39,229 bases of DNA, from assembly GCA_013388965.1 (NCBI GenBank), contig JACAEG010000097.1:1-39229 (forward strand), written 5' to 3'. Positions 14,130 to 33,275 of the stretch are shown piece by piece. This stretch comes from Pseudorhodoplanes sp. Lineage in GTDB: Bacteria; Pseudomonadota; Alphaproteobacteria; Rhizobiales; Xanthobacteraceae. Numbering within the stretch: position 1 is the stretch's first letter; each line of letters starts with the position of its first letter. The notes beneath the pieces were generated by a model, which was given only the letters and a program-made list of their open reading frames with translations, was not told the DNA's origin and ran no database searches. The position numbers and the translations under genes are program-made.

Positions 14130-14200
14130 GGGAAGATCACGGTGACGGCCGAAAGGCCGGCGGGGCAAACCTTGCCATGCCGGCGCCGGCTCGGCTCAGC

Positions 14201-15088: not shown

Positions 15089-15135
15089 CGGGTGAAGGTT
15101 CTAATGCGCGCGGGGAACCGGCCGGCACCCTGCGC

Positions 15136-15165
15136 TTGATAGACCGGTTTGTTATTTGATACCTT
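15136..15165 (+). promoter_or_regulatory. Weak candidate promoter in the divergent gap (TTGATA - 18 bp - TACCTT)
   Basis: Locally AT-rich stretch 'ttgatagaccggtttgttatttgatacctt' in a GC-rich locus, upstream of the preferred GTG at 15200. Confidence 0.25.
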
Positions 15166-15199
15166 CATTCAATGCAAATGTGGGGCAGGGGCGCCGGTT

Positions 15200-16084: not shown

Positions 16085-18016
16085 ATGAAATATCGCGCCG
16101 ATATCGACGGGCTGCTCGCGGTCGCGGTCATGCCCGTTGTGCTTTATCATGTCGGGGCGGGACCATTCACCGGCGGTTTTGTCGGCGTCGACGTCTTCTT
16201 CGTGATCTCCGGCTTCCTCATCACGTCGCTGATCGTCGAGGACATCCGGAACGATCGCTTTTCGCTGCTCGATTTCTATGAGCGCCGCGCTCGCCGCATT
16301 CTTCCTCCTCTGTTTGCGGTCATGGCGGCCTCGGCGGTTGCTGCCTATCTGCTGTTTCTGCCCCCTCCGTTGCTCGGCTTTTCCGAGAGTCTGATCGCCA
16401 CGTCCTTCTTCGGTTCAAACTTCTATTTCTGGTGGCAGGTCGATTATTTCGATGCGCCCGCAGAGCTGAAACCGCTCCTGCATACGTGGTCGCTGGCCGT
16501 GGAGGAGCAGTTCTATCTGCTCTACCCGCTGCTGCTGTTGCTTGTGGTCCGCCGCTGGAAGAACGCCTGGCCGGTAGTGATCATGATGCTGATGGTCGTC
16601 AGTTACTTGGCGAGCATATGGGCCGTGCGCCGGATGCCGGCGGCGGCCTTCTATCTTCTTCCCTATCGTGCCTGGGAGCTTTTGCTCGGTGCCATGCTCG
16701 CGAGCGGCTTCGCCCCCAAAGTGGGCGGGAGACGGCTTGCGGAGGTGCTCTCGCTCGCCGGCGTCGCCCTGATCGCCTACGCCGTCTTTACCTATCGGAC
16801 TTCGATGGTATTTCCCGGACGCGCGGCCGTTTATCCATGCCTTGGCGCCGCCTTGCTGATTTATGCCGGGGGCCTCAGTACCGAAACACTGGTCGGGCGG
16901 GCGATGACCTGGCGGCCGGTCGTCTTTATCGGGCTTATTTCCTATTCGCTCTATCTCTGGCACTGGCCGATTGTCGTGTTTGGCAAATACTGGCTCGTCA
17001 TGCCGCCGACGCCAACGATTCTGGCGGGGATGGTGCTGGCATCCGTCGTCCTGTCGTATCTGTCCTGGAAGTGGCTCGAAGGGCCGATCCGCGCGAAGCT
17101 GCGCTTGCCCACGCGCCGGGAGCTGGCTGCTGGCATCGGCGCTTGTGTCGCCGCCTTCCTGGTCTTCGGCATGTGGGGGATCGCGGCGCAAGGTTGGCCT
17201 CACCGGATCAGCCCGGTCGTGCTCGCGCTCGCCGACGAAAAGCAGTTCATGCATGATCGCCGAGACTGCAACGGTGTCTCAAACAAGCAATTGTCCGACC
17301 TCTGCATCCGCGGAGCTTCAGGCGTCGCACCGGATTTCATTCTGGTCGGCGACAGCCACGCCGACGCCCTCAGCCCGGGCCTGTTTGCGGCGGCGGCGGC
17401 AGCGGGCCGCGCCGGCTACCAGTTCACGGAGGGCGGATATCGTCCAGCCTACGGTTTCGATCGCGTCGGCGATGAGATGCGCATCAGAAAACTCGACGCG
17501 AATCTGCGGGAACTGATCGAGAGAAGCGGCATTCGGGACATATTCATCATGGCCTACTGGTCGTCCGCGATGAAGAATGAATATCTCGACGCCAACGGCC
17601 ACCGCCGGTCGGCCGCGCTTGTCCTGGCACACAGCCTGACGACGCTCGCCCGTTCCGATCCGAATATTCGTCTGTTCGTCATCGAGGACAACCCGAGTGC
17701 CCCGCAGCTTTCTCCGGGCACGGCGGCCCGGGCCATTCATTTCGGAAAGCAGCCGTCGGTCGGCATCGCGCGGCAGGAATACCAGGAGCAACTCGATGCC
17801 TTCCGTCCGGTTCTCAGAGAAATCGAGAAGCTTCCGAACGTCAAGGTAATCGCACTTGGCGATCTCCTGTGCGACAAGAGCTTCTGCGGCAGCACTTCGG
17901 CCGACCAGCCGCTCTATCGCGATGACAATCACCTCTCGATCGTGGGGGCGTCGCGCCTCCAGGGAATGTTGACGGACATCCTCGCCCGCCCGAGCGCCGC
18001 AGCAAGCAATCACTGA
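16085..18016 (+). CDS. Acyltransferase 3 family (OafA/YrhL-like O-acetyltransferase) with C-terminal SGNH domain
   Basis: 'YRADIDGLLAVAVMPVVLYHVG', 'GGFVGVDVFFVISGFLIT', 'HTWSLAVEEQFYLLYP'; SGNH 'ILVGDSHADAL' and 'DDNHLSIVGA'. Confidence 0.95.
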   Translation: MKYRADIDGLLAVAVMPVVLYHVGAGPFTGGFVGVDVFFVISGFLITSLIVEDIRNDRFSLLDFYERRARRILPPLFAVMAASAVAAYLLFLPPPLLGFSESLIATSFFGSNFYFWWQVDYFDAPAELKPLLHTWSLAVEEQFYLLYPLLLLLVVRRWKNAWPVVIMMLMVVSYLASIWAVRRMPAAAFYLLPYRAWELLLGAMLASGFAPKVGGRRLAEVLSLAGVALIAYAVFTYRTSMVFPGRAAVYPCLGAALLIYAGGLSTETLVGRAMTWRPVVFIGLISYSLYLWHWPIVVFGKYWLVMPPTPTILAGMVLASVVLSYLSWKWLEGPIRAKLRLPTRRELAAGIGACVAAFLVFGMWGIAAQGWPHRISPVVLALADEKQFMHDRRDCNGVSNKQLSDLCIRGASGVAPDFILVGDSHADALSPGLFAAAAAAGRAGYQFTEGGYRPAYGFDRVGDEMRIRKLDANLRELIERSGIRDIFIMAYWSSAMKNEYLDANGHRRSAALVLAHSLTTLARSDPNIRLFVIEDNPSAPQLSPGTAARAIHFGKQPSVGIARQEYQEQLDAFRPVLREIEKLPNVKVIALGDLLCDKSFCGSTSADQPLYRDDNHLSIVGASRLQGMLTDILARPSAAASNH

Positions 18017-18034
18017 CACGGACCGCGCCGTGCT

Positions 18035-19426
18035 TCAGGCCGCGATGCCGGTGGTCGCCGCCTTGCCGTGACGGGTGCGCAGAATTTCGTCGCGAACGGC
18101 CTCGCGGACGCGCTGGCCCGCCATTCCATCGTCGTTGCCGACCCAGAAGGTGAGCGCCTCCGCGGCTGCGGGACGAAGGTCGGACGCGCGGGGCGAGGGC
18201 GCATTCAGATGGGCGCTTGCGCGCTCGACGATTTCATCCGGCGAACGCGCCCGTTCCACCGCGTCCCCGACGTCGATCACCAGGGGGCGCATGCGGGGAT
18301 CGTCGGCCTCGCCGAATTGCGGCACGATCACGGGCTTGCCGGCCGCGAGCGCTTCCAAAAGCGCAGTGGTATTGAAACCGATGACGACGCTGCTCGCGAC
18401 GATCAACGGGAAGGGATCGCCGCCGGAAACAACGGACAGGTTGGGTGGCAGCTCTCCGGCGAACTGACGCAGGAGATTCAGGCTGTCGTCCACGCGCCTC
18501 GATTGAGCCTTGGTCTTGACCACGACCCGCGCCTGCGGATTGCGTCTCGCCAGTTCGATAATCGCCTTGTGGGTCCCTTCGCAGAGTTCCGTCCAGGAGA
18601 GGTTGGCCCATTCGCCATCGGTGACGTCGATGCGGACCCGTGCGTCGGTCACGCGCTCCATGTCGGTCAGCTTCTCCTTGCGCCAGAAGGAAAAGAAAAG
18701 GACCTGTGGGGCGTTCCCGGACTGGTCGGCGGCATGGTTCTTTCGCCACCTGTGAATGCGATCCATCCGCGGCATGCCCGTGACGGCGATCTGCTCGCGA
18801 GCGGCCACGCCGGTTTCTGCCTGCAACTCCTTCTCGGTATCGCTGTAGACGAGGATCTTGCTGCCTTCGAAGGCGCCCCTGGTCCGGTAGATCGCGCGCC
18901 AGTATTCGACGCGCTCGGGACTCTTGACGTTTTCCTTGTGCAGAACCACGAGCGGTGTTCCCGCCTGCTTCAATGCGGCGCCGAACTCGCGCTGCGCGAA
19001 GTAGCCGAAATTGGCCGTGACCACGGCATCGATCGGCCGCAATTCGCGGAAGCGCTGCCAAAGCGCAAGCAGAAACTCGCGAAATTGCAGCTTGCTCGCC
19101 TCCACGGCGGGATCGTCGCTGGCATAGCGCCGGTTGCTGAGCTGTGGGGCGAGGATCGCCGATGCCATCGCCTTCAGCGCGTAATTCGGCCAGCTCACGA
19201 CCTCGAACGCGGAATCGGCAAGCAGGCTCTCCTCGATATCGCCCGGGAAGCCCGGCTTGTTCAGATTGAGCACGAGCACGCGGTAGCTCGCCGGTTCGCC
19301 GCGCCTCGATGGAAGGTGCTCCGGAAACGGTCTCACGCTCAAGGCCAGCACGCGTGCCGCAATTCGCGGCAGGCGCAGCCGCGCGAGCAGGCTCAGCGCC
19401 GGATAGAGGATGAATTTAAGGCGCAT
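18035..19426 (-). CDS. GT-B-like surface polysaccharide protein, tandem paralog 4 (last in transcription order)
   Basis: 'VTGMPRMDRIHRWRKNHA', 'VVIGFNTTALLEALAAGKPVIVPQFGEADDP', 'FWVGNDDGMAGQRVREAVRDEI', all shared with the three upstream genes. Confidence 0.85.
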   Translation of the reverse strand: MRLKFILYPALSLLARLRLPRIAARVLALSVRPFPEHLPSRRGEPASYRVLVLNLNKPGFPGDIEESLLADSAFEVVSWPNYALKAMASAILAPQLSNRRYASDDPAVEASKLQFREFLLALWQRFRELRPIDAVVTANFGYFAQREFGAALKQAGTPLVVLHKENVKSPERVEYWRAIYRTRGAFEGSKILVYSDTEKELQAETGVAAREQIAVTGMPRMDRIHRWRKNHAADQSGNAPQVLFFSFWRKEKLTDMERVTDARVRIDVTDGEWANLSWTELCEGTHKAIIELARRNPQARVVVKTKAQSRRVDDSLNLLRQFAGELPPNLSVVSGGDPFPLIVASSVVIGFNTTALLEALAAGKPVIVPQFGEADDPRMRPLVIDVGDAVERARSPDEIVERASAHLNAPSPRASDLRPAAAEALTFWVGNDDGMAGQRVREAVRDEILRTRHGKAATTGIAA

Positions 19427-19444: not shown

Positions 19445-20863
19445 TCACGCAGGCTTTATTTCCCTGCAGATTGCCTCATAGGCGCGGCGCCCGGCAAGGC
19501 CGTCCTCGTTGCCCAGCCAATATTGCAGGATCTTCTTCACCCTTTCCGGCAGCTCCAGCGGGGTATTGAGGGGCTGGATCGCACGAGCCAGAACGAGCTC
19601 CCGAAGCTGGGCGGGAGAGTCGGCGTAATCCGCGGCATCACCTACATCGATCACGAACTTGCGCAGGACGGGATCGACCGCCTCGCCGAAACGGGGAACG
19701 ATGACCGGCTTGCCGAGCGCGAGCGCTTCCAGGACGCCGGTCGTGTTGAATCCGACGACGACCCGGCTCTCGGCCATCAATTCAAAGGCGTCGCCCCCCG
19801 AGGTGATATGGAAATTGGCGGGCGGAGCTTCCTCGCCCGCGTTGACGATGGCGAGCAATTCCTCGTCCTGTCGAGTCAGGCCTTTGGTCTTGGCGTAAAC
19901 ATGAATGTCCGGCCTTGCGCGCGCCAGGTCGACCATCGCGCGGTGGGTATCCGTGCAGAAGCCGCCCCATCCATTCGACAATCCTGCCTCGACCGGGATC
20001 TTGTCCGAGCGAGAGAACGAGAAAAACGTCACCTTCGCGGCGCGGCCGGCGGGCGCCGGCCCCGCATGCTCGCGCCGCCAGCGATGGAAGCGGTCGAGCC
20101 GAGCCATGCCGACTACCTCCACTTGCGATGGCGTAACGATGCCGCTCGACAACTCGAGGTCACATTCCATCTGGTTGTAGACTAGAATTTTGCGACCGCC
20201 GAACTTGCCGCGTCTCTCCCGATAGATCCCGCGCCAGAATTCGCGGCGATGCTCTGTTGCGGCGTTGAGATTTTCCTTCTGGAGCACCACGAAGGGCGTC
20301 CCGTATTGCTCAAGCGCGAAGGCAAGTTCGCGCTGTACGCGATAGCCGAAATTCGGGGAGATGACGGCCGCGAATGGCTGGATGCGCTGCAGATGTCGCC
20401 ACATCGCAAGGGCAAATCGCCGGTATCGGGGCTTGGTCGCCTCGACCTCCGGATTGTTGGTGACATAGGTGTCGTGCCGTAGGCCGGGATAGAGAATGGT
20501 ATCGGCGATGGCGGGCAGAGCATATTGCGGCCACTGCACCAGTTCGAACCGGTCGTCGCCGCTGAAGACCTCGAGAATATCTCTGAGAAACTCGTCCTTT
20601 CCGGAATTCAGGACGAGAATCCGACTTGGCCCGGTCTTGGGTGTGCCATCGTCCTTGACGATGGGTTGAGAAAGGGTCGCAAGCATGCGCGCCGCTACCC
20701 ACGGCAAATTCCACCGCGCCGCGAACGACAGGATCTTTCGCCGGGTGTCTTTGTGCACCAGGATGGCGTGAGCCTTGTTCCGGTAGTCGTCAAGGCGCTG
20801 AATCATCGAGCTGCTCGTGCAATTCGTGCCATCGGGCCGCTCCAGGCCGTTCAGTTCTGGCAT
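19445..20863 (-). CDS. GT-B-like surface polysaccharide protein, tandem paralog 3 (divergent copy)
   Basis: 'VVGMARLDRFHRWRREHA', 'VVVGFNTTGVLEALALGKPVIVPRFGEAVDP', 'YWLGNEDGLAGRRAYEAICREI'; internal Met at 20806 is an alternative start avoiding the upstream overlap. Confidence 0.85.
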   Translation of the reverse strand: MPELNGLERPDGTNCTSSSMIQRLDDYRNKAHAILVHKDTRRKILSFAARWNLPWVAARMLATLSQPIVKDDGTPKTGPSRILVLNSGKDEFLRDILEVFSGDDRFELVQWPQYALPAIADTILYPGLRHDTYVTNNPEVEATKPRYRRFALAMWRHLQRIQPFAAVISPNFGYRVQRELAFALEQYGTPFVVLQKENLNAATEHRREFWRGIYRERRGKFGGRKILVYNQMECDLELSSGIVTPSQVEVVGMARLDRFHRWRREHAGPAPAGRAAKVTFFSFSRSDKIPVEAGLSNGWGGFCTDTHRAMVDLARARPDIHVYAKTKGLTRQDEELLAIVNAGEEAPPANFHITSGGDAFELMAESRVVVGFNTTGVLEALALGKPVIVPRFGEAVDPVLRKFVIDVGDAADYADSPAQLRELVLARAIQPLNTPLELPERVKKILQYWLGNEDGLAGRRAYEAICREIKPA

Positions 20864-22275
20864 GCGGGGACAGAGAAGAGGGCCGGCGCCTTCCGGCGCG
20901 GCTTCGCCGCGGTCCGGCGATCCCGGGTCCGCCCGATCTCGCGCCTGACGCTATCCAGCACCCGCCGGCCGGCGCCGCCGTCGTCGTTGCCGACCCATTC
21001 CCGCAAGGTCCTTGCCGCCGTGGGGTCGAGCTGTTCGGGAACGGTGGCGGGGCTGTCGAGCTCGAGGCAGACGAGGCGCTTCAGATCGTCCGGTGAATGC
21101 GCCTTCTGCACCGCATCGCCGAGATCGATGACAAGCTCGCTCATGGCGGGATCGCGCGCTTCGCCGAAATCCGGGACGATGACCGTCTTCCCGGCGGCCA
21201 GCGCCTCCAGGAGGGCCGTGCTGTTGAAGCCGATCACGACCTTGCTCTCGGCGATCAGCTCGACCGGATCGCCACCCTTCACGATGCTGAAATTCGGCGG
21301 CAGCTCGCCACCATATTCGCCGAGGCTCCTGAGCACCTCGTCGAGCCTTATGGATTGCGGCTTCGTCTTCAGCACGACCCGGATATCGGGACGGGCGCGC
21401 GCCAGTTCGATGACGGCGCGGTAGGTGCCCTCGCACAGGACATTCCAGTTGCGCCTGCTCCATTCCTCGTTGCTGTCGACGCGCAGGCGGGCATCGGTCA
21501 CGCGCTCGTAGGCGGTCAGCTTTTCTCGCGCCCAGAATGCAAAGAACAGGACCTGCCGCGGATTGGCAGCCGCCGTTCCGCCATGCTCCCGCCGCCACCG
21601 GTGCACGCGATCCAGCCGCGGCATGCCGGTGACCACGATCGCATTCGCGTCGGCGACGCCCCCCGCGATCTGCAGCGCGCGTTCGGTCTCGCTATAGACG
21701 AGAATCTTGCTGCCCTCGAAACGGCCGCGCGCACGATAGATCGGCTCCCAGTATTTCAGCCGCCCCGGGCTCTTCACGTTTTCCTTGTGCAGGGCGATGA
21801 AAGGCGTGCCCGCTTCCTGCAACGCCGCGGCGAATTCCCGCTGATTGTAATAGCCGTAATTGGCGGTGAGGACGGCGTCGATCGGGCAGGACCGGGTGAG
21901 CGCCTGCCAGACCTCAAGGAGAAACCGGCGGTAGCGCTGTTTCGTGGCCTCGATCGCGGGATCGTCGGTGGCATATCGCTTGTTGCTGAGTTCGGGAGCG
22001 AGCAGGGCGGCCGAGAACGATGTCAGGGCATAGGTGGGCCAGCTCACGAGCGCGACATCATGCGCGTCGCCGAAGCTCGCCGCCACATCCGCCGGGAATC
22101 CGGGCTTGTTCAGGTTGAGGACCATGATTCGGCAGGCGGGGGAAGCGGGAGCGGGAAGGCCAGGCAGCGGCGACAGGTTGCGCGCCAGCAGCCATGCCGC
22201 CAGGCGCGGCATGTTCAATCGCGCCGCAATTCGCAGGATCCATTTGAGCCAGGTCTTGGGCCGGAGATAGGTCAT
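20851..22275 (-). CDS. GT-B-like surface polysaccharide protein, tandem paralog 2
   Basis: 'VTGMPRLDRVHRWRREHG', 'VVIGFNSTALLEALAAGKTVIVPDFGEARDP', 'EWVGNDDGGAGRRVLDSVRREI'. Confidence 0.85.
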   Translation of the reverse strand: MTYLRPKTWLKWILRIAARLNMPRLAAWLLARNLSPLPGLPAPASPACRIMVLNLNKPGFPADVAASFGDAHDVALVSWPTYALTSFSAALLAPELSNKRYATDDPAIEATKQRYRRFLLEVWQALTRSCPIDAVLTANYGYYNQREFAAALQEAGTPFIALHKENVKSPGRLKYWEPIYRARGRFEGSKILVYSETERALQIAGGVADANAIVVTGMPRLDRVHRWRREHGGTAAANPRQVLFFAFWAREKLTAYERVTDARLRVDSNEEWSRRNWNVLCEGTYRAVIELARARPDIRVVLKTKPQSIRLDEVLRSLGEYGGELPPNFSIVKGGDPVELIAESKVVIGFNSTALLEALAAGKTVIVPDFGEARDPAMSELVIDLGDAVQKAHSPDDLKRLVCLELDSPATVPEQLDPTAARTLREWVGNDDGGAGRRVLDSVRREIGRTRDRRTAAKPRRKAPALFSVPACQN

Positions 22276-22278
22276 CGG

Positions 22279-23649
22279 CTAGACGGCGCGAGCGAGGTTC
22301 GGCGCAACCGCATCCCTGATCGCGTTGTGAACGCGCTGGCCGGCGGCGCAATCGTCGTTGCCGACCCAGTATCGCAATACCCGCGACACCGACCCGGTGA
22401 GTTCGCTCGGAACGTCGCGCGGGTTGTCGACAAGATCGGTGACGAGCCGGATGAGCTCCTCCTCCGACTGCGCGTAGGTCACTGCATCTCCGAGATCGAT
22501 AATATGACCGCGCATGGCGCTGTCCTGCGCCTCGCCGAACCAGGGGACGATCACCGGCTTGCCGGCCGCGATCGCCTCGAGCAGCCCGGTCGTGTTGAAG
22601 CCAATCACAGCCCGGCTCTGGGTCATCAGCGGGAAGGGATCCCCACCGGCGACCACCTTGACGTTTTCCGGCAGCGTTTCCGCCGCCGATTTCAGCATCA
22701 GCAGGATATCGTCCTTCTTGCGGTGCTGACCCTTGGTCTTGATCACGACGGTGATGTCCGGCCGGCGGCGCGCGAGTTCGACCATGGCGCGATGCGAGCC
22801 TTGCCCGAGATCGTTCCAGCCGAGCTTGCCCCAGTCGCCGTCCATCGCCTCCATATTGCCTTCGATTCCGGCATAGGCCTTGCGCTGGATGCCGGTCAGT
22901 TTCTCGTGGCGCGCAAAGGCGAAGAACAGGACCTGGGGCGAGGTTCGCTCGCGCGAGGGGCCCGCATGCTGCCGGCGCCAGCGATGCACGCGATCGAGCC
23001 GCGGCATGCCGGTGATCACGATTCGCTCCGGTTCCGCGACGACGCTCTCGATCTGCAGGTTGCGCTCGATATCGTTGTAGACGAGCACGGTCCTGCCGGT
23101 GAAGGGGCCGCGGCGTTCCTTGTAGAGACGATGCCAATAGCCGACCCGGTTCGGCGGCCGGACATTCTCCTTGTGAATGGCGACGAAGGGTGTGCCCGCC
23201 GCCTCAAGAACGGCCGCGAATTCGCGTTCCGCGCAATAGCTGAAATTGCCGGTCAGCACGATGTCGATCGGCATCAACCGCGACAGATGGGTCCAGACCT
23301 GCGCCAGAAAATCCCGATACGCGCGTTTGGTGGCCTCGATCTTCGGGTCGGACGTCAGATAGAAATTGTGATCGAGCGACGGCGACAGGATGGCGGACGA
23401 GAAGGCCTTCAGCGCAAAGCTCGGCCAAACGACAACCTCGAAATCCTCCGCCTCGCGAAAACTCTCCTCGATGTCCTCGAAGAATCCGGCGCGCGACATG
23501 ACGAGCGCCCGGTAGCGCGCCTTGCGGGTTTGCGCGGCCCCGACCGGCAGCCTTCGGGAGATCAGGTAGAGCAGCCAGGCGGCCAGCCGCGGCTGCCGCC
23601 ACCGGGCGAATTGCCGGAAAAGAAAATACAGGATCGAATGTACAAACAT
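22279..23649 (-). CDS. GT-B-like surface polysaccharide protein, tandem paralog 1 (first in transcription order)
   Basis: 'ITGMPRLDRVHRWRRQHA', 'AVIGFNTTGLLEAIAAGKPVIVPWFGEAQDS', 'YWVGNDDCAAGQRVHNAIRDAV'. Confidence 0.85.
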   Translation of the reverse strand: MFVHSILYFLFRQFARWRQPRLAAWLLYLISRRLPVGAAQTRKARYRALVMSRAGFFEDIEESFREAEDFEVVVWPSFALKAFSSAILSPSLDHNFYLTSDPKIEATKRAYRDFLAQVWTHLSRLMPIDIVLTGNFSYCAEREFAAVLEAAGTPFVAIHKENVRPPNRVGYWHRLYKERRGPFTGRTVLVYNDIERNLQIESVVAEPERIVITGMPRLDRVHRWRRQHAGPSRERTSPQVLFFAFARHEKLTGIQRKAYAGIEGNMEAMDGDWGKLGWNDLGQGSHRAMVELARRRPDITVVIKTKGQHRKKDDILLMLKSAAETLPENVKVVAGGDPFPLMTQSRAVIGFNTTGLLEAIAAGKPVIVPWFGEAQDSAMRGHIIDLGDAVTYAQSEEELIRLVTDLVDNPRDVPSELTGSVSRVLRYWVGNDDCAAGQRVHNAIRDAVAPNLARAV

Positions 23650-23923: not shown

Positions 23924-23961
23924 GGCGAATGCGCCGCATTCTCCGAACCTGCGGATCCACT

Positions 23962-25731
23962 GTGAAGCACGCTGCCCCGAAAGACGTCGACAAGCTTGCC
24001 ACTTTTTTTGCGATCTACCGGACGCTGATTCATCAGCGCCCGCGTCTCCTTGTGGCGGTTGTCGCCCTCAGCTTCGCGGCGGCGCTCTCCGAAGGCGTCG
24101 GGCTCGCGATCATCTATCCGATGCTCGACAGCGTGGTCGGCAGCGGAAAGCTGCAAGGCGGCGTGTGGGACTGGCTGCGCAATATCGCGGTCTCGATTTC
24201 CGGCACGTCCCCGACCGAGGGGCTGCTCTATCTCGCGATTATTGTCTTCGGCCTGAAGGCCGTCCTGCTGGCCATGAACGTCGTCGCCACCTCCTTGTGG
24301 ATCAACCGGCTGCAGGAGGACTGGCGTCTCGCGGCGCTGAGCCATTATCTGTACGGGCCCTACCGGGAGATCGTGGGCGAACGTCGCGGCAAGATCATTC
24401 AGAATATTCTCGGCGAAACGGGCACCGCTTCGAAGGGGGTGGAACAGCTTCTGATCCTTGTAACCAAGAGCGTGTTCGCGGTCGTGCTGATCGGCACGTT
24501 GTTCGTGCTGAACTGGAAGATGACCGCCGCCTTGCTGCTTGTGGTCGCGCTGGTCGTCCTGATCATTCGCTCGCGGGCTCTCGGCTTCATGCAGCGGCTT
24601 GGCCGCAAGCGCCTGACCTCGAAACAGGCGATGATGGCGGTCACGGCGGAGCCTATCTTTGCAGCCAGCACCATCAAGCTGCTCGGCGTCGAGAACGACG
24701 TGCTGGAAAGCCTGAAGCGGCCGCAACGCAAGCAGACGAGGGTCAATGTCTTGATGGCGCTTTTCACGAAGGCGCCGGATTTCTTTGTCGAGTTCATCGT
24801 CGTCGCCGTCGTGGCGATCATCTTCATCGTGATGGCGCGCGGGTTTGGAGTTCCCTACCAGGATACGGCGCCGCTCATCGGCGCCTTCGCGATCGTCTGC
24901 TCGCGTTTGCTCAATGTGTTGAGCAGCCTCTTCAACATGCGGCTCAATCTGGCCACCATCGCGCCGACATTGCCGCTTGTCGAACGGCTCGTTCGCAGCG
25001 ACGAGAACGCCGATGTCGTCAAGCGCGGAGAAACGCTGGGCAGCATTCAGGGCGATATCGAATTCCGCAATGTCAGTTTTTCCTACACCCCCGACAAGGA
25101 GGTGCTGACGAATCTGTCGCTCACCTTCCCGAAGGGCAAGATGATCGGCATCGTGGGCGAGACGGGCGTGGGTAAGTCGACCATCGGCTATCTGATCGGC
25201 CGGCTCTACGACCCGCGAAGCGGCGCGATCTTCGTCAACGGCCGCGACATCCGCGATTTCTCGATTCAGTCGCTGCGCCGCCGCCTTGGCTATGTCGAGC
25301 AGAACCCCGCCATATTCAACGGCACGGTCGCCGAGAATATCGCGCTCGGCGCGCCCGGCGCATCGCGCGAGGATGTCGAGAGGGCGGCAAAGGCCGCCGA
25401 GCTTCACGATTTCATCCTGTCGCTTCCGAACGGCTATGACACCCCCGTACACGATCAGGGCTCGACCCTGTCCGGCGGCGAGCGGCAGCGACTGGCCATT
25501 GCGCGCGCGATCGTGCGGAAGCCGGATGTTTTCGTGTTCGACGAGGGGACCAGTGCGCTCGACCAGAAGACCGAGGCGGCCGTGCAGAGATCAATTCAGA
25601 CGCTCGCGGGCGATGCGACCGTCATTGTGATCGCGCACCGGATCGCCACATTGAAGCATGCCGATCTGATTTACGAGCTTCTGCCCGGCGGAAAAGTGGT
25701 CACCCGCCGCTTCGAAGAGATCGCGGCGTAA
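23962..25731 (+). CDS. ABC transporter, fused permease/ATPase (MsbA/PglK-like lipid-linked glycan exporter)
   Basis: N-terminal TMD; NBD with Walker A 'GETGVGKSTIG', signature 'LSGGERQRLAIARAI', Walker B 'VFVFDEGTSALD'; alternative ATG at 23929. Confidence 0.92.
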   Translation: MKHAAPKDVDKLATFFAIYRTLIHQRPRLLVAVVALSFAAALSEGVGLAIIYPMLDSVVGSGKLQGGVWDWLRNIAVSISGTSPTEGLLYLAIIVFGLKAVLLAMNVVATSLWINRLQEDWRLAALSHYLYGPYREIVGERRGKIIQNILGETGTASKGVEQLLILVTKSVFAVVLIGTLFVLNWKMTAALLLVVALVVLIIRSRALGFMQRLGRKRLTSKQAMMAVTAEPIFAASTIKLLGVENDVLESLKRPQRKQTRVNVLMALFTKAPDFFVEFIVVAVVAIIFIVMARGFGVPYQDTAPLIGAFAIVCSRLLNVLSSLFNMRLNLATIAPTLPLVERLVRSDENADVVKRGETLGSIQGDIEFRNVSFSYTPDKEVLTNLSLTFPKGKMIGIVGETGVGKSTIGYLIGRLYDPRSGAIFVNGRDIRDFSIQSLRRRLGYVEQNPAIFNGTVAENIALGAPGASREDVERAAKAAELHDFILSLPNGYDTPVHDQGSTLSGGERQRLAIARAIVRKPDVFVFDEGTSALDQKTEAAVQRSIQTLAGDATVIVIAHRIATLKHADLIYELLPGGKVVTRRFEEIAA

Positions 25732-25732: not shown

Positions 25733-26833
25733 ATGGCAAAGTCTGTCGCGTCGGCTTCCCCGGACGTGCCTGCGAGCGCAGGCACCTTTGCGATCGAGGG
25801 ACGGCTGGTGGGCCCGGGCCAGCCTGCCTATCTGATTGCCGAAGTGGCGCAGGCGCATGACGGCTCGCTCGGCTTTGCCCACGCCTTCATCGATGCCGCC
25901 GCCGAGGCGCGCGCCGATGCCATCAAGTTCCAGACCCATTTTGCGGACGAGGAATCGACGCGCGACGAGCAGTTCCGCATCAAGTTCTCCAGGCAGGACG
26001 CCTCTCGCTTCGATTACTGGAAGCGGATGGAATTCACCGACGAACAATGGGCCGGGCTTGCCGATCACGCGCGCGAGAAAAAACTGCATTTCATCAGCTC
26101 CGCCTTCTCGGCGCGGGCGGTCGAGCTTCTGGAACGGCTCGGCATGCCGACCTGGAAGGTGGCCTCCGGCGAGGTGCTCTCGCCCGGCTTCCTTCAGCGC
26201 CTCGCGAAAACCGGCAAGCCGGTGCTGCTGAGCACGGGCATGAGCCCCTATGCCGAGATCGAGACTGCGTTCAGGTCGCTGCGGGATGCGGGCGCCCCCG
26301 TGGCGATCCTGCAATGCACCAGCCGCTATCCGACGCCGTTGCAGGAAGTCGGCCTCAACGTCATCGATGAACTGCGCCGCCGCTTCGGATGCCCGGTCGG
26401 CCTGTCCGATCATTCGGGGCAGGTTTACCCGGCGCTGATCGCGATGGCGCGGGGCGCCAGCATCATCGAGGCGCACATCACGCTCGATCGGCGCATGTTC
26501 GGGCCGGATACGTCGTCGTCGCTGACGGTGGAGGAGTTTGCGCTGCTTGGGCGGACCCGGGACGCCATCGCGGAGATCGACGCCCATCCGGTCGACAAGG
26601 ACCGCATGGCCGAGGCCATGACGGGCATGCGCGACCTGTTTCAGAAGTCGGTGGCCCCGAAACGTGCGCTTTCCGCCGGAACCCTATTGACGCGCGACAT
26701 GCTAACGACAAAAAAGCCCGCCACCGGCATCCCGGCGGGGGAGCTCGAGCGCGTCGTCGGCCGCAGGCTGTCTCGCGACGTCCTTCCCGACCGGGTTCTG
26801 AACTGGAGCGATCTTGATGAGCAAGGCGAGTAG
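25733..26833 (+). CDS. neuB: NeuB-family nonulosonic acid synthase with C-terminal SAF domain
   Basis: 'AYLIAEVAQAHDGSLGFAHAFIDAAAEARADAIKFQTH', 'WKVASGEV', 'VLLSTGMS', 'VGLSDHSG', C-terminal 'KKPATGIPAGELERVVGRRL'. Confidence 0.92.
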   Translation: MAKSVASASPDVPASAGTFAIEGRLVGPGQPAYLIAEVAQAHDGSLGFAHAFIDAAAEARADAIKFQTHFADEESTRDEQFRIKFSRQDASRFDYWKRMEFTDEQWAGLADHAREKKLHFISSAFSARAVELLERLGMPTWKVASGEVLSPGFLQRLAKTGKPVLLSTGMSPYAEIETAFRSLRDAGAPVAILQCTSRYPTPLQEVGLNVIDELRRRFGCPVGLSDHSGQVYPALIAMARGASIIEAHITLDRRMFGPDTSSSLTVEEFALLGRTRDAIAEIDAHPVDKDRMAEAMTGMRDLFQKSVAPKRALSAGTLLTRDMLTTKKPATGIPAGELERVVGRRLSRDVLPDRVLNWSDLDEQGE

Positions 26834-27983
26834 CCGTCGGAAGGTTTGCGTGGCCGTCAACAGCCGCGCGAACTATGGACGGATCAAGTCGGTATTGCTG
26901 GCCATCCGCGAGAACCCGAAGCTCGAGCTGCAGCTGATTGTCGGCGCCTCCGGCCTGCTGCAGCGCTTCGGCAGCGTCGTCGACGTGATGCGCAAGGACG
27001 GGTTCGAGCCGAATGCAACCGTCTACAGCATCGTCGAAGGCGAGACGCCGACCACGATGGCCAAGTCGACCGGCCTCGCCATCATGGAACTGGCGACCCA
27101 GTTCGAGAATCTGAAGCCGGATGTCGTGATCACGGTCGCCGATCGGTTCGAGACCATCGCAACCGCGATCGCTGCGGGCTACATGAATATCGCCGTCGCC
27201 CATACGCAGGGCGGCGAGGTGACCGGCTCGATCGACGAAAGCGTGCGCCATGCCGTGACCAAGCTGTCGCATCTGCACTTTCCGGCGACGAAGCTTGCGT
27301 GTGAATATGTCATCAGGATGGGAGAGGATCCGAGCACGGTTCACTTCACGGGCTGTCCGTCGATCGACGCAATCGCCTCGCTCGACCTGTCCTCGCCGGG
27401 CGATATCTTCAAGCGCTATCGCGGCGTCGGTGCCGAGCTCAATCCGGACGAGCCGTATATCGTCGTGCTGCAGCATCCGGTGACCACCGAATACGGGCAG
27501 GGATTGCAGCAGATCGAAGAGACGCTGAATGCCGTGCACCGCATCGGCATGCAGACGGCGTGGCTGTGGCCGAACGTCGATGCCGGCTCCGACGACGTGT
27601 CGAAGGGCATCCGCCGCTTCCGCGAGCTGCATCAGCCGAAGAAGATTCATTTCTACATCAACTTCGCGGTTGAGGATTATGCGCGGCTGATCAACAACGC
27701 GAAATGTCTCGTCGGAAATTCAAGCTCGGCCCTGCGCGAGGGTGCGTTCCTGGGCGTGCCGGCGGTCAATATCGGCACGCGACAGCAGGGCCGCGAGCAC
27801 GGCCCCAATGTCGTGCACGCGCCCTACGACCGGGTTGCGATCGAAGCCGCGATCCGCAAGCAGATCGCGCATGGGCGCTACGAGCGCTCGGAGATGTTCG
27901 GCGACGGCAAGGCGGGCGAACGCATCGCCAAAATCCTGGGCGAAGCCGAGCTTCGAATTCAGAAGCGACTGCATTATCAATAA
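26817..27983 (+). CDS. neuC: UDP-N-acetylglucosamine 2-epimerase, hydrolysing (NeuC/LegG-like)
   Basis: 'VAVNSRANYGRIKSVL', 'VITVADRFETIATAIAAGYMNIAVAHTQGGEVTGSIDESVRHAVTKLSHLHFPAT', 'VGNSSSALREGAFLGVPAVNIGTRQQGRE'. Confidence 0.94.
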   Translation: MSKASSRRKVCVAVNSRANYGRIKSVLLAIRENPKLELQLIVGASGLLQRFGSVVDVMRKDGFEPNATVYSIVEGETPTTMAKSTGLAIMELATQFENLKPDVVITVADRFETIATAIAAGYMNIAVAHTQGGEVTGSIDESVRHAVTKLSHLHFPATKLACEYVIRMGEDPSTVHFTGCPSIDAIASLDLSSPGDIFKRYRGVGAELNPDEPYIVVLQHPVTTEYGQGLQQIEETLNAVHRIGMQTAWLWPNVDAGSDDVSKGIRRFRELHQPKKIHFYINFAVEDYARLINNAKCLVGNSSSALREGAFLGVPAVNIGTRQQGREHGPNVVHAPYDRVAIEAAIRKQIAHGRYERSEMFGDGKAGERIAKILGEAELRIQKRLHYQ

Positions 27984-28055
27984 ACCCGGTGTGAACTGCG
28001 CCGGGCGGCAAGGTTGAAGACCGGCGCCCGTGAACGGTGCCTGTGAGGGTTGGGT

Positions 28056-29015
28056 ATGGCGTCGGGGCGTTTTTCGGTTGTCTATCTGGGCGCTCCCGAA
28101 GGCGCCGAGGCCGCGCGCGGCGTTCTGGCGGACGGTTTCGAGGTCCGGCATCCCGAGCATACGCCAGGCGCCGTGGCGGATGCCTTGCGGGGCGCCGATG
28201 CGCTCCTCGATGCCTCGATGAAAGTGCCGATCGACGACCGGATGATTTCCGAATCACCGAAGTTGCGTATCATCAGCTGCGCGACGACCGGTTCGGATCA
28301 CATTGCGCGCGACGTGCTGTCCGGCCGCGGCATCCCTGTGCGCACGCTGCGCGAGGATGGCGAGCTGTTGCGCAACATCACGCCGGCGGCCGAATTGACA
28401 TTCGCTCTCCTGCTGGCCTGCGCGAGGCGGCTGCCGGCGGCGCTGAACGCCGTCAAGCGCGGCGAATGGGTGCGCGAGGATTTCCCGGGCCTGATGCTCA
28501 ACGGGCGGCGGCTGGGGGTCATCGGCTGCGGCCGCATCGGCGGCTGGATGGCGCGCTACGCCCGCGCCTTCGGCATGGACGTGGTCGGCTACGATCCGTT
28601 CCTGACGGCCTTCCCCCCGGACATCGCGCCGGTAGAACTGGAGGAACTCGTCGAGACTTCGGACGCCGTGACCGTGCATGTGCATCTGAGCGACAAGACG
28701 CGGGGCCTGGTCTCGGCCGATCTGTTCAAGCGCATCAAGCCTGGCGCGATCTTTCTGAATACGTCGCGCGGCGCCGTGGCGGACGAGGCGGCGCTGCTCG
28801 CCGCCCTGGAATCCGGCCGTGTCTCCGCGGCGGGCCTCGACGTGCTCGAGGGCGAGCCGGATGTGGCGAGGCATCCGCTGCGGCTCTATGCCGAGCGTCA
28901 TGACAATCTGCTGATCACGCCGCATTGCGGCGGCTTCAGCCCGGACGCGGTGCGGGTCGTGTGCCGGCGCGCCGCCGAAAAAATCCGCGATCATCTGCAG
29001 GGCGCGGCATCATGA
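28056..29015 (+). CDS. D-isomer-specific 2-hydroxyacid dehydrogenase family protein
   Basis: 'GRRLGVIGCGRIGGWMARYARAFGMDVVGYDPF', 'AIFLNTSRGAVADEAALLAALESGRVSAAGLDVLEGEP', 'LLITPHCGG'. Confidence 0.92.
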   Translation: MASGRFSVVYLGAPEGAEAARGVLADGFEVRHPEHTPGAVADALRGADALLDASMKVPIDDRMISESPKLRIISCATTGSDHIARDVLSGRGIPVRTLREDGELLRNITPAAELTFALLLACARRLPAALNAVKRGEWVREDFPGLMLNGRRLGVIGCGRIGGWMARYARAFGMDVVGYDPFLTAFPPDIAPVELEELVETSDAVTVHVHLSDKTRGLVSADLFKRIKPGAIFLNTSRGAVADEAALLAALESGRVSAAGLDVLEGEPDVARHPLRLYAERHDNLLITPHCGGFSPDAVRVVCRRAAEKIRDHLQGAAS

Positions 29016-30562
29016 GCCAGTTTGCGCGGCTGGCGGGCGAGATCGCGGAAATCAACGAGGGGCCGGTCTTCGGCGTGCCCGGCAGCGGCGCGACGCTCTC
29101 GCTGATCGACGAGCTGGAGCGCAAGGGCCGCGATTTCGTGCTTGCGCAATTCGAGGGCGCGGCCGCCATGATGGCCGGCACCGTCGGCCGGCTGAGCGGG
29201 AAGGCGGGGCTGTGCCTGTCGATCAAGGGTCCGGGCGTCACCAACATGATGCCGGGGCTGGCGGTTGCGTCCTTCGAGGCATTTCCGCTGGTGGCGATCT
29301 CTGAGGCCTATGGTGCCGGCACGCCGGCCGCGCGCGCGCACAAGCGGATCGACCAGAGCGCGCTGACCTCGACCGTCTCCAAGGGCATCACGCAATGGAC
29401 CAAGGCCTCGTCCGGCTTTGCCGAGGTGGCGGCGCTGGCGCAGGCCGAGACGCCCGGTCCGGTCGTGCTCGAGCTCGCGCAGCCCGAGCCGGCACAGCCG
29501 GCGCCGCTTCCCCAGCTGCCCGCGAGCAAGCCCGGCCACCCGCGTGCCGTTCTCGATCTCGTCCGAAAATCGTCGCGTCCGCTGGTCATCGCCGGCACGC
29601 TCGCCATCCGGCAGGGCCTGTCGCGGCGGCTCGCTGCGCTCGCGATTCCGGTCTTCAGCACGGCGGCGGCGAAGGGGGTCATGGACGAGACGCAGCCGAT
29701 GTCGGCGGGCGTCTTCACCGGCGTCGGCCTCGAGCTCAGCCCGGAGCAGCATCTCATCAAGGACGCCGATCTCGTCGTGTGCTTCGGCATGCGGCCGAAC
29801 GAGATGCTGGCGACCAGGCCGTTCGGGCCGCCGGCCGTCAACATCGCTGCGGTGTCCGAGCCCGGCGCCGAGGCCTTCGCCTTCGCCGCGGTCGCGGGGG
29901 CGGACAGCGCCGGCGAGGTTCTGGACGAACTCGCCGGCAAGGACTGGGGCGCCGATCTCGTCGCAAAGGCGCAGGACGGAATCCGCCGTGCCATGCTCTC
30001 CAACCATTTCCTGCCGGCGCATGTGTTCGAGGCCGCGCAGGCGCATTTTGCCGGCACGGTCCGCGGCGTGTTCGATACCGGCTATTTCTGCACCATTGCC
30101 GAACATGCCTGGCGCCCGCGCGACGCCGCGCTGTGCCTGATGTCGGGGCAGGGCCGCTACATGGGCACCGGCATTCCGATGGCGCTCGGCGCAGCCATCC
30201 ACGATCAATCCGTGCCGACGGTCGCCTTTCTCGGCGACGGCGGCATCGGCCCCTTCGTCGGCGAGGCGCGGCTCGCCGTCGAACGGAAGCTGCCGCTGCT
30301 GTTCTGCCTGCTGAGCGACGGCTATCTCTCGTCCATCCGAACCCGCGCGCTGAACGACAAGCTGACACAGAAGCCGGTGACCATCGGCCAGCCGTCCTGG
30401 GCGCGCGTGTTCGAGGCGTTCGGCATGCCCGCCGCGAATGTCGACAGCGAAGATGCCTTCGCCAGGGCCCTGGGCGCGTGGCGGCCGAAGGACGGGCCGG
30501 CCTTCATCGAGGTCGCGTTCGATCCCGATCCCTACGAGGCGATGGTCAAGGGCATACGCTGA
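29012..30562 (+). CDS. Thiamine pyrophosphate-dependent enzyme (acetolactate synthase/decarboxylase superfamily)
   Basis: ATGA overlap with upstream gene; 'GPVFGVPGSGATLSLIDELE', 'VLAQFEGAAAMMAG', 'SIKGPGVTNMMPGLAVASFEAFPLVAISE', 'FLGDGGIGPFVGEARLAVERKLPLLFCLLSDG'. Confidence 0.88.
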   Translation: MSQFARLAGEIAEINEGPVFGVPGSGATLSLIDELERKGRDFVLAQFEGAAAMMAGTVGRLSGKAGLCLSIKGPGVTNMMPGLAVASFEAFPLVAISEAYGAGTPAARAHKRIDQSALTSTVSKGITQWTKASSGFAEVAALAQAETPGPVVLELAQPEPAQPAPLPQLPASKPGHPRAVLDLVRKSSRPLVIAGTLAIRQGLSRRLAALAIPVFSTAAAKGVMDETQPMSAGVFTGVGLELSPEQHLIKDADLVVCFGMRPNEMLATRPFGPPAVNIAAVSEPGAEAFAFAAVAGADSAGEVLDELAGKDWGADLVAKAQDGIRRAMLSNHFLPAHVFEAAQAHFAGTVRGVFDTGYFCTIAEHAWRPRDAALCLMSGQGRYMGTGIPMALGAAIHDQSVPTVAFLGDGGIGPFVGEARLAVERKLPLLFCLLSDGYLSSIRTRALNDKLTQKPVTIGQPSWARVFEAFGMPAANVDSEDAFARALGAWRPKDGPAFIEVAFDPDPYEAMVKGIR

Positions 30563-30571
30563 GGCACGCAG

Positions 30572-31573
30572 ATGGACGGCAAACACATCCTCATCGTCGG
30601 CAGCGGCAGCGTCGGCAAGCGCCACGCCCGCAACCTGGCCGCGCTCGGCTGCCGCATTTCCGGCATGGACCCGCGCGCGGATCGCCGCGAGGAGATGGCG
30701 TCGGAAGTGAAGCTCGTCGCCGCCTTCGCGAGCGAGCAGGAGGCCTATGCGGCCGCGAAATACGATGGGGTCGTGATTGCCTCGCCGCCGCATGTGCATG
30801 TGCGCCAGACCGTCCAGGCGCTCGAGGCGGGCTGTCCCGTGCTGCTGGAAAAGCCGGTCTGCCCCGACCTGAAAGGCGCACGCGCGCTGCAGGAGGCTGC
30901 GAAGCGCACCAAGGCCCCGCTGCTGATGGGCTATACGTGGCGCTGGTGGCCGCCGCTGGCCGACGTGCGCCGCCTGCTCGATGAAAAGGCCGTGGGTGCG
31001 ATCCACCACGTCCAGTTTCACATGTCGGCCCATCTCGCCGACTGGCATCCCTGGGAGCGCTACCAGGATTTCTTCATGGCGCAGCGCGAACAGGGCGGTG
31101 GCGCGCTGCTCGACGAAAGCCACTGGATCGACCTGATGCTGTGGCTGTTCGGCATGCCGAAGGAGGTGAGCGGCAAGATCGACAAGATCAGCACGCTCGA
31201 GATCACGAGCGACGACAATGTCGACCTGCTATTCACCTACGAGGATGGCCCGCGCGTGACCATGCATCTCGATCTCTACGGCCGTCCGCACGAGAAGTTC
31301 ATCCGCTTCGTCGGCGCCGACGGCACGATCTTCTGGTCGGCGGATCCGAACCAGCTGTCGGTCGGCCGCACGGCTGCGGCGGAGTGGGACAAGACGGCCT
31401 ATCGATGCGAGCGCAACGACATGTTCGTCGCGGTCGCGAAGGAGTTTCTGGCCGCGATCGATGGCGCGCCGGTGAAGACCTGCAATCTCGACGACGGCGT
31501 GAACGTGCTCAGGGTGATCGAGGCCGCGCGCGCCGCCAGCAGCGAGAATCGCGCGGCGGCGATCGGGGACTAG
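30572..31573 (+). CDS. Gfo/Idh/MocA family oxidoreductase
   Basis: 'HILIVGSGSVGKRHARNLAALGCRISGMDP', 'GVVIASPPHVHVRQTVQALEAGCPVLLEKPV', 'GALLDESHWIDLMLWLFG'. Confidence 0.93.
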   Translation: MDGKHILIVGSGSVGKRHARNLAALGCRISGMDPRADRREEMASEVKLVAAFASEQEAYAAAKYDGVVIASPPHVHVRQTVQALEAGCPVLLEKPVCPDLKGARALQEAAKRTKAPLLMGYTWRWWPPLADVRRLLDEKAVGAIHHVQFHMSAHLADWHPWERYQDFFMAQREQGGGALLDESHWIDLMLWLFGMPKEVSGKIDKISTLEITSDDNVDLLFTYEDGPRVTMHLDLYGRPHEKFIRFVGADGTIFWSADPNQLSVGRTAAAEWDKTAYRCERNDMFVAVAKEFLAAIDGAPVKTCNLDDGVNVLRVIEAARAASSENRAAAIGD

Positions 31574-31576
31574 CGA

Positions 31577-32299
31577 ATGGCGCTGCAGGGACAGACCGTT
31601 CTCGCCGTCGTTCCCGCCCGCGGGGGCTCGAAAGCCATTCCGCGCAAGAATCTGTGTCAGGTCGGCGGCATCTCGCTGGTCGGACGGGCGGGCGAGGTCG
31701 CGCGCGCGCTGCCCTGGATCGACGCGCGTGTCCTCTCCACCGACGACAGGGAAATCGCCGACGAGGGCCGGGCGCACGGGCTCTATGTCCCGTTCATGCG
31801 GCCCGACGAATTGTCCGGCGACCTCGCCAATTCGATCGACATGTGGCGGCATGCCTGGCTGGAATCGGAAAAGCACTATGGCAAGCGCTTCGACGTGTCC
31901 GTGCTGCTGGAGCCGACGAGCCCGCTGCGGCGCGCCGAGGACGTCACCGGGACCGTGGAATTGCTCCTGAGCGGCGACTACAAGGCGGCCGCAACCGTCA
32001 GCCCGGCGCCGGCGCATTTCACGCCGCACAAATGCCTGACGGTGAACGATGGGCTCATCGGCTTCTATCATCAGGCCGGCGCCCAGCACAGCATCCGGCA
32101 GACCATCCCGACCTATTATTTCCGCAACGGCATCTGCTATGCAGTCCGCCGCAAGACTCTGGTCGAGGACAGGGTGATTCTCGGCGACCGTTGCGCGGCC
32201 AACGTGATCGACCGCCATATCGTCAACATCGACGACATGTTCGATCTGGAACTGGCCGAGTTTCTGCTCCAGCGCGAAGCGCGCGCCGGGTCGCATTGA
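31577..32299 (+). CDS. neuA: Acylneuraminate cytidylyltransferase-like (CMP-nonulosonate synthetase)
   Basis: 'VLAVVPARGGSKAIPRKNLCQVGGISLVGRAGEVAR', 'VLLEPTSPLRRAEDV', 'RNGICYAVRR', 'DIDD'-like 'NIDDMFDLELAE'. Confidence 0.88.
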   Translation: MALQGQTVLAVVPARGGSKAIPRKNLCQVGGISLVGRAGEVARALPWIDARVLSTDDREIADEGRAHGLYVPFMRPDELSGDLANSIDMWRHAWLESEKHYGKRFDVSVLLEPTSPLRRAEDVTGTVELLLSGDYKAAATVSPAPAHFTPHKCLTVNDGLIGFYHQAGAQHSIRQTIPTYYFRNGICYAVRRKTLVEDRVILGDRCAANVIDRHIVNIDDMFDLELAEFLLQREARAGSH

Positions 32300-32312
32300 G
32301 GCGACGCGGGCG

Positions 32313-33275
32313 ATGACCGACGCCAATCCTTCGCGGCTCCTGTTCGTCAACTATCACTATATCCGCGATCCGAGCGCCTATGCCTTCCCCGGCATTCATT
32401 CGCTGTCGATGGGCGATTTCCGCGCGCAGGTGGAATGGCTCGGCGCGCGGTTTCACTTCGCCACGCCGGAAGAGGTCGAGGGCTTCGCGCTCGATGGCAA
32501 GCCGCTCGCCCGCCCGAGCGTGTTCATCACCTTTGACGACGGTCTCGTGGATCATTGGGAGGCGACGCGCGAGGTGCTCGATCCGCTCGGCATCCGCGCG
32601 GGCTTCTTCGTCTGCTCGCGTCCCGGGGTGGAGGGGCGGATCCTCTCGGTTCACAAGGTGCATTGGCTTCGGTCGCATACCGAGCCGAAAGCCTTCGCCG
32701 CGGAATTCTTCTCCCATGTGCCCGATGACCTGCGTCCGCGCGCCGACGCGCCGTGGCTGCAAAGGGCGCGGGGAGCCTATGTCTACGATACCGAAGAGGT
32801 TGCTCAGCTCAAATACGCGCTCAACTTCGTGCTGCCGAGCGCGCTCGTGGACGACATCACTTCGGCGATGATGGCGGCGCGCGGCATCGACGAGCGCGAC
32901 TTCTGCCGCATGACCTATATGGGCGAGGGCGCCTTGCGCGGCCTCGTGGATCGCGGCCATGTGCTGGGCGTGCATGGCCACACGCATGAGCCGTTCTCGC
33001 GGCTCGGCGATGAACTCTTTCGGGAGGTGCGCATCAATCACGACTTTCTGGCGCAGGCGAGCGGCCGGCCTCCGCGCTGGGTGTCGTACCCTTACGGCCG
33101 CAAGGATGCGATCCCGTCGGACGACGCGCTGGATCGGCTGTTTTCGGAATTCGGCTTCCGGCTCGGCCTCACCCTGCTCGGGACATGGAACGACGGCACG
33201 CAGGACCGTCGGCGGCTCTGCCGGGTCAACACCAACGACGCCGAGGCTGCGAGCGCTGCGGTCGAGACGCGCTGA
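32313..33275 (+). CDS. Polysaccharide deacetylase (NodB homology, CE4-type)
   Basis: 'VFITFDDGLVDHWEATREVLDPLGIRAGFFV' (TFDDG) and 'LGVHGHTHEPFSRLGDEL' (HxxxH); no evident signal peptide. Confidence 0.85.
   Translation: MTDANPSRLLFVNYHYIRDPSAYAFPGIHSLSMGDFRAQVEWLGARFHFATPEEVEGFALDGKPLARPSVFITFDDGLVDHWEATREVLDPLGIRAGFFVCSRPGVEGRILSVHKVHWLRSHTEPKAFAAEFFSHVPDDLRPRADAPWLQRARGAYVYDTEEVAQLKYALNFVLPSALVDDITSAMMAARGIDERDFCRMTYMGEGALRGLVDRGHVLGVHGHTHEPFSRLGDELFREVRINHDFLAQASGRPPRWVSYPYGRKDAIPSDDALDRLFSEFGFRLGLTLLGTWNDGTQDRRRLCRVNTNDAEAASAAVETR

Follow-up and report, generated by a model that had tools for sequence, protein, structure and literature searches.

The known nonulosonic acids (NulOs) share a fixed chain of nine carbons and vary in configuration, N- and O-substituents, and deoxygenation. 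Among other surface sugars, branching of the carbon skeleton has an established precedent in the YerE-like, thiamine diphosphate (ThDP)-dependent enzymes of Yersinia, Pectobacterium, and others (PMC12247030). The locus considered here lies on contig JACAEG010000097.1 of Pseudorhodoplanes sp. (assembly GCA_013388965.1), and the whole analysed stretch of 39,229 nucleotides is referred to as the window. At positions 25733-33275, seven tightly packed open reading frames (ORFs), all on the + strand, comprise a deacetylase gene and a six-gene cassette in which genes for the NulO enzymes NeuB, NeuC, and NeuA accompany a trio comprising a D-2-hydroxyacid dehydrogenase (DH), a ThDP-dependent enzyme, and an oxidoreductase of the Gfo/Idh/MocA family (Gfo). 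A preliminary description of this DNA had placed the trio with the NulO genes, which holds, and the gene order that it suggested checking recurs in other genomes; its picture of an ‘interrupted’ operon was misleading, as the trio belongs integrally to it, and the deacetylase that it listed after NeuA is present in the window and in 13 of 23 related loci, frequent though not universal. That the six genes from NeuB to NeuA constitute one shared pathway unit is well supported by the genomic comparison. It is tentatively proposed, with a confidence somewhat short of even, that their product is a single cytidine monophosphate (CMP)-activated NulO carrying a modification at the level of the carbon skeleton.

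One genome from each of approximately 85,000 species was scanned with an alignment of the ThDP family, which recovered 23 further loci (L021-L043) whose ThDP enzymes share 44%–55% identity with that of the window. Their carriers are all metagenome-assembled genomes (MAGs): 21 belong to the Alphaproteobacteria, some labelled Rhizobium, Bradyrhizobiaceae, Rhodospirillaceae, or Rhodospirillales, and two are labelled Deltaproteobacteria. Several of these MAGs are closely related, and hence the 23 loci are not all independent. One additional match (L044, 29%) was dropped as an unrelated ThDP enzyme. At the level of the order, a relative of the ThDP enzyme (E < 1e-60) was found in none of 398 genomes besides its own; in a class sample of 385 genomes, four others encode a close relative (45%–56%), after which the next matches drop to around 30%. 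These four overlap the scan (L021 = G474, L027 = G758, L031 = G676, L043 = G730), and in all of them DH and Gfo flank the ThDP gene in the same order as in the window. No family member was found in phages or viral contigs, and the best of the plasmid matches listed is only about 27%–30% identical.

The trio does not occur mostly apart from NulO genes but is tied to them: DH, the ThDP enzyme, Gfo, NeuB, and NeuC are found together in 24 of 24 genomes, and NeuA in 23 of the 24. Fourteen loci, the window counted, have NeuB-NeuC-(methyltransferase)-DH-ThDP-Gfo-NeuA as one contiguous series, the order being repeated at about 45%–75% protein identity in 13 other complete loci and in one cut by a contig end (L028, where NeuB and NeuC are in place and a partial Gfo and NeuA of the same genome lie on another contig); such recurrence is not due to chance. 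NeuB-NeuC lies apart from the other cassette genes in nine genomes. Eight of these (L031, L033, L034, L036-L039, and L042) still keep DH-ThDP-Gfo together, with NeuA adjoining the trio in six, located about 11 kb away in L031, and not found in a search of the genome of L042. In UBA2966 (L023/L117), the trio itself is split, with DH-ThDP-NeuA some 16 kb from NeuB-NeuC-Gfo; all parts are kept, and the Gfo missing from L023 is directly behind NeuB-NeuC at L117 (59% identity). Genome searches located NeuB (56%–63%) and NeuC (69%–74%) in all ten split or cut genomes, NeuB being present as two fragments in that of L042. Across the six proteins, pairwise distances are correlated with r of 0.80–0.96, a calculation free of any species-tree control, and the highest value links the ThDP enzyme with Gfo.

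Two explanations bear directly on this co-occurrence. An ordinary N-acetylneuraminic acid (Neu5Ac) operon carrying passenger metabolic genes is extremely improbable: each protein taken singly does belong to a large and common superfamily, but the three orthologues recur with NulO genes across distant genera, with order and residues kept, and the comparative data thus disfavour it. Alternatively, the product of the trio might be another branched sugar of the polysaccharide, distinct from the NulO, and its genes would then be no more than co-located with the NulO genes. Surface-sugar loci often stack pathways, and the window does contain a CapD-like dehydratase, a nucleotide-sugar dehydrogenase (UGD), and the isomerase KpsF; moreover, YerE-like enzymes normally work on a separate nucleoside diphosphate (NDP)-sugar (PMC12247030). 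These other sugar genes are, however, scarcely kept with the cassette (CapD in 1/23 loci, a short-chain dehydrogenase/reductase [SDR] in 0/23, KpsF in 0/23, and UGD in 1/23), whereas NeuB, NeuC, and NeuA are; NeuA mostly stays by the trio when NeuB-NeuC moves, and in UBA2966 it is Gfo that goes with NeuB-NeuC. A separate sugar is thus considered rather unlikely.

The association is looser in the opposite direction. NeuC at 69% identity or more occurs in eight of 384 class-sample genomes besides the window’s, including all four that are ThDP-positive—a coincidence with a chance of about 8e-8 by our own arithmetic, which ignores kinship—and four of the eight are without the trio. Six trio-less genomes were tested for window-type Gfo, and none has it. 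As some genomes of the NeuC clade do without the trio, NeuB and NeuC are read as part of a wider NulO clade to which the trio is an add-on module. Three of the four trio-less NeuC genomes have a Maf or Maf-sized gene by their NulO genes. Maf-type flagellin glycosyltransferases, confirmed with Pfam, adjoin same-clade NeuC genes at L110:6672-8660 and L108:9951-11966, making flagellin glycosylation with a NulO probable in these two loci without the trio; in trio-less L111, an ORF matching the Maf genes in size and place adjoins the NulO genes.

The backbone can be approached through the three NulO enzymes. NeuB lies nearer to NeuB_NnaB (TIGR03569, 290.5 bits; cut-off 399.65) than to PseI (219), albeit below both cut-offs; its closest solved relative is the meningococcal NeuB/SiaC, and in alignment with that enzyme E37, K65, Q67, K142, E147, H227, H248, and D259 are conserved. 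NeuC scores 254 bits with the human GNE epimerase and 186 bits with the hydrolysing epimerase for diacetylbacillosamine, and is thus nearer to the former; the TIGR03568 model that it matches may also cover legionaminic-type epimerases. The nearest relatives of NeuA in the PDB are CMP-Neu5Ac synthetases; its best NCBIfam model is PseF, at 106 bits against a cut-off of 206. Neither a 4,6-dehydratase nor an aminotransferase is present in the cassette, and the CapD-like gene of the window is conserved in one of the 23 loci, although such genes may lie elsewhere in the genomes. Since NeuC is nearest the type acting on uridine diphosphate-N-acetylglucosamine (UDP-GlcNAc) and neither a 4,6-dehydratase nor an aminotransferase is conserved, we infer a Neu5Ac-like backbone. 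A substrate switch in NeuB, through a lysine at the position of meningococcal Arg314, was considered and rejected, as trio-less L108, L109, L112, and L113 also have the lysine.

The ThDP enzyme is a full-length protein of the acetolactate synthase type with intact cofactor residues: the cofactor-activating Glu48, the GDG motif at 408-410 (D409), and Asp436 are invariant among the 24 members. Its AlphaFold model, with a predicted local distance difference test score (pLDDT) of 89, is nearest to catabolic acetolactate synthases (template modelling [TM] score 0.83–0.85, 20%–24% identity), and a sequence profile likewise puts it nearest to the catabolic enzyme AlsS. It reaches no NCBIfam cut-off; the best model, acetolactate synthase, scores 152 bits against 509. 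The His-Gln of AlsS is replaced by His110-Lys111, invariant in all 24 members, which suggests a changed substrate. The substrates of ThDP enzymes with this fold are 2-keto acids, and many such enzymes form carbon–carbon bonds. By analogy, the enzyme would most likely take a carbon unit from a 2-keto acid and attach it to a ketone, and the comparison with YerE is plausible because a full-length enzyme of this type retains its cofactor residues. Simple decarboxylases have the same fold, and a NulO, being a 2-keto acid, itself belongs to the substrate class of both ThDP enzymes and 2-hydroxyacid dehydrogenases; the enzyme might therefore act as a decarboxylase or lyase, shortening or opening a keto acid or uronate, with the two dehydrogenases adjusting the oxidation state. 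A decarboxylated NulO would, however, have lost the two groups, carboxylate and keto, that NeuA-type enzymes activate, and the nearest structures are carboligases, which renders this explanation very unlikely.

Members of the Gfo family conserve the EKP motif (93-95) and His184, and the structural matches of the model (pLDDT 93) include many dehydrogenases and reductases of sugars. Two of these, RgNanOx and YjhC, have derivatives of sialic acid as substrates; they share the fold (TM score approximately 0.86), and the oxidation of a sialic acid derivative on the ring by RgNanOx is a precedent for a Gfo enzyme working on a NulO. Both differ from the cassette protein in their catabolic context, and at 15%–18% identity they hold no special rank among the sugar dehydrogenases.

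DH is nearest to phosphoglycerate, glyoxylate, and glycerate dehydrogenases; it scores 201.9 bits against the phosphoglycerate dehydrogenase equivalog, below the cut-off of 454, and its catalytic Arg-Glu-His and NAD motif are kept in the 24 members. This kinship, together with that of the ThDP enzyme to acetolactate synthase—a maker of hydroxyacids—favours a further explanation, in which the product of the trio is a small acid (for instance a D-2-hydroxy or dihydroxy acid, via an acetolactate-like intermediate) that is placed on an amino or hydroxyl group of an ordinary NulO. Known pseudaminic acids bear di-O-methylglyceroyl or hydroxybutyryl groups and offer a parallel. A deacetylase, methyltransferases, and sulfotransferases lie nearby, and a pair of M20-family genes flanks NeuB-NeuC in L115, with M20-sized ORFs of unassigned family similarly placed in other split genomes. 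On the other hand, no acyltransferase or ligase forming acyl-CoA or acyl-AMP was identified among the gene clusters common to at least five loci, and a sugar-type Gfo would not be required. A small-acid substituent is accordingly judged unlikely, although not markedly so.

A second type of operon contains NeuC-DH-NeuA (L117, L138, L139, L140, and L141), its DH sharing 36%–42% identity with that of the window. NeuB is annotated beside these genes in L117 and L141 and was located just upstream in L138-L140 by genome search; L030 has NeuB-DH-NeuA without NeuC. The ThDP enzyme of the trio is absent between NeuC and NeuA in these operons, and no ThDP enzyme stands beside the second NulO operon in L117 or L030. 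Those near the second operons of L138-L141 probably belong to the neighbouring chromosome and were left out of the counts; the two that were scanned are PRK08266 (752 and 759 bits; cut-off 571), a common family different from that of the trio. This NeuB-NeuC-DH-NeuA arrangement is a simpler variant, of which we know of no description. In L113, a 38% homologue of DH stands behind NeuB-NeuC and an asparagine-synthase-like gene; the latter encodes an amidotransferase-like protein (L113:6554-8347) between NeuC and the DH homologue of this trio-less operon. From this distribution, 2-hydroxyacid dehydrogenases recur in NulO operons in their own right and may have a role of their own.

In the proposed pathway, NeuC would convert UDP-GlcNAc to N-acetylmannosamine, which NeuB would condense with phosphoenolpyruvate to a Neu5Ac-type 2-keto acid. 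Gfo would oxidise a sugar hydroxyl to a ketone, whilst DH would supply the donor by oxidising a D-2-hydroxyacid to a 2-keto acid, for example D-glycerate to hydroxypyruvate. The ThDP enzyme would then decarboxylate the 2-keto acid and transfer the two-carbon carbanion onto the ketone, yielding a C-branched sugar; an aldehyde as alternative acceptor would give a longer chain, and DH or Gfo might instead reduce the adduct. NeuA would activate the modified product with CMP, and a sulfotransferase, methyltransferase, or deacetylase and the ATP-binding cassette (ABC) exporter would handle the glycan. The supply of keto acid by DH agrees with translational coupling through the 4-nt overlap of the DH and ThDP genes, which is seen in the window and in 11 of the 23 related loci. 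The identities of the genes, the conservation of their catalytic residues, and their strict co-occurrence as a unit are matters of observation; we infer every reaction of the trio, and the order of the reactions.

Several points weigh against a carbon-level modification of the NulO. The cassette proteins are known from genes alone, in carriers that are all MAGs. Instead of ligating to the sugar, the ThDP enzyme could act as a decarboxylase or produce a small acid. Known routes of the YerE type use NDP-4-keto-deoxy sugars that a dehydratase provides, and the cassette lacks such a dehydratase. The active-site letters of NeuB are identical in trio-positive genomes and their nearest trio-negative relatives, and hence its acceptor is probably unchanged; the trio would then act after the condensation, or on positions outside the NeuB contact. 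Finally, homologues of DH (36%–42%) occur in NeuB-(NeuC)-DH-NeuA operons that lack the trio’s ThDP enzyme, which speaks against donor supply as the sole role of DH. The bacteria probably bear on their surface an undescribed, possibly carbon-branched, relative of sialic acid. More doubtful is the possibility that the NulO skeleton itself is branched or lengthened by ThDP-dependent carboligation, giving a class outside the neuraminic, ketodeoxynonulosonic (Kdn), legionaminic, pseudaminic, and fusaminic acids; such a class would so far be restricted to uncultured Alphaproteobacteria and to two lineages with the label Deltaproteobacteria.

The ORF coordinates of the preliminary description proved accurate, as did the ATGA junction that it reported, and the families were confirmed with Pfam and NCBIfam (Table 1). 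The start codon of DH is probably the ATG. Intergenic gaps measure 9 nt between the ThDP enzyme and Gfo and 3 nt between Gfo and NeuA. No Rfam match to an RNA element was found within the window, and scans for promoters and terminators remained near chance level.

Table 1. Features of the cassette and its surroundings (positions in the window unless preceded by a locus number).
Feature	Position	Strand	Basis or remark
Four tandem paralogues, ~460 aa	18035-19426, 19445-20863, 20851-22275, 22279-23649	-	44%–56% to the first
ABC exporter, MsbA-like	23929..25731	+	1-nt gap to NeuB; family scans and locus comparison
NeuB-type nonulosonate synthase, SAF domain	25733..26833	+	PF03102, 227 bits
NeuC, hydrolysing UDP-GlcNAc 2-epimerase	26814..27983	+	TIGR03568 (NeuC_NnaA), 380.7 bits; cut-off 235.9
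D-2-hydroxyacid dehydrogenase (DH)	28056 (ATG; alternative TTG 28050)..29015	+	2-Hacid_dh
ATGA stop/start overlap, DH/ThDP enzyme	29012..29015	+	Read in the sequence
ThDP-dependent enzyme, acetolactate synthase fold	29012..30562	+	TPP_enzyme N, M, C
Gfo/Idh/MocA oxidoreductase (Gfo)	30572..31573	+	GFO_IDH_MocA; EKP 93-95, His184
CMP-nonulosonate cytidylyltransferase, NeuA/PseF-like	31577..32299	+	CTP_transf_3 (PF02348)
Polysaccharide deacetylase family (CE4) protein	32313..33275	+	Polysacc_deac_1
DH of second-type operons	L117:6307-7287, L138:6919-7884, L139:5271-6236, L140:6765-7730, L141:6528-7496, L030:479-1441		36%–42% identity

Homologues of the MsbA-like exporter precede NeuB in most contiguous loci, a deacetylase homologue follows NeuA in most of them, often behind a sulfotransferase, and a methyltransferase lies between NeuC and DH in part of them. 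The four tandem paralogues reach no Pfam cut-off and match the BFO_1060/TIGR04396 glycosyltransferase models weakly; with relatives near the cassette in 10 of the 23 loci, they are candidate NulO- or repeat-specific transferases that would use the product. Further off, positions 3761-8677 encode a CapD/PglF-like 4,6-dehydratase (3761-5656; the sole dehydratase-like gene in the window), the SDR, a WecA-like transferase, and the KpsF isomerase, and UGD is also found in the window; the 3761-8677 genes probably provide an initiating sugar and a function related to 3-deoxy-D-manno-octulosonic acid (Kdo) for the same surface glycan.

Other loci add features of their own. In the split genome of L115, the two M20-family amidohydrolases that bracket NeuB-NeuC lie at L115:6634-8082 and 10294-11592, and L116 and L118-L120 have ORFs that resemble them in size and place. 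Winged-helix and NusG-like genes upstream in L115 also precede several contiguous operons. L023 carries, between the ThDP enzyme and NeuA, genes of MBOAT-like and SGNH/AlgX-like appearance (L023:11521-14005), and this pair suggests a step of O-acetylation in that genome. Around the cassette of L043 are distant NeuB and NeuA homologues (27%–31%; L043:1299-2369, 13861-15399, and 17532-18251), perhaps belonging to another NulO-like pathway encoded there.

If the proposal is correct, the conservation of a ThDP enzyme among NulO genes would imply that the skeleton, too, is altered in nature, and the cassette would be a source of enzymes for carbon-branched sialic acids; six compact and recurrent genes make the pathway amenable to testing. 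In the open-access literature, no paper was found that connects NulO genes to a ThDP enzyme, nor any published pathway assigning this gene set; subscription journals may contain such an assignment.

Compared with described systems, Neu5Ac operons share the NeuB, NeuC, and NeuA activities but have no need for DH, the ThDP enzyme, or Gfo, all of which are conserved in the cassette; at the Neu5Ac equivalog level, the cassette NeuC passes its cut-off whereas NeuB falls short. Legionaminic and pseudaminic acid operons encode proteins of the same NeuB, NeuC, and NeuA types, together with a 4,6-dehydratase and an aminotransferase, both of which the cassette lacks. AlsS, the nearest solved relative of the ThDP enzyme (20%–24% identity), differs in having glutamine in place of Lys111, and its counterpart here stands in a sugar-gene setting. 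The loci for yersiniose, erwiniose, and caryophyllose resemble the cassette in placing a ThDP enzyme of the decarboxylase superfamily among surface-sugar genes with redox partners (PMC12247030). YerE-like enzymes act on NDP-deoxy-keto sugars, whereas the cassette has CMP-NulO genes and no linked dehydratase. NeuB lies below the Neu5Ac equivalog level, and the cassette departs from the legionaminic/pseudaminic operons in lacking a dehydratase and from the YerE loci in lacking NDP-keto-sugar genes; its mechanistic likeness to the YerE-like systems is not weakened by this.

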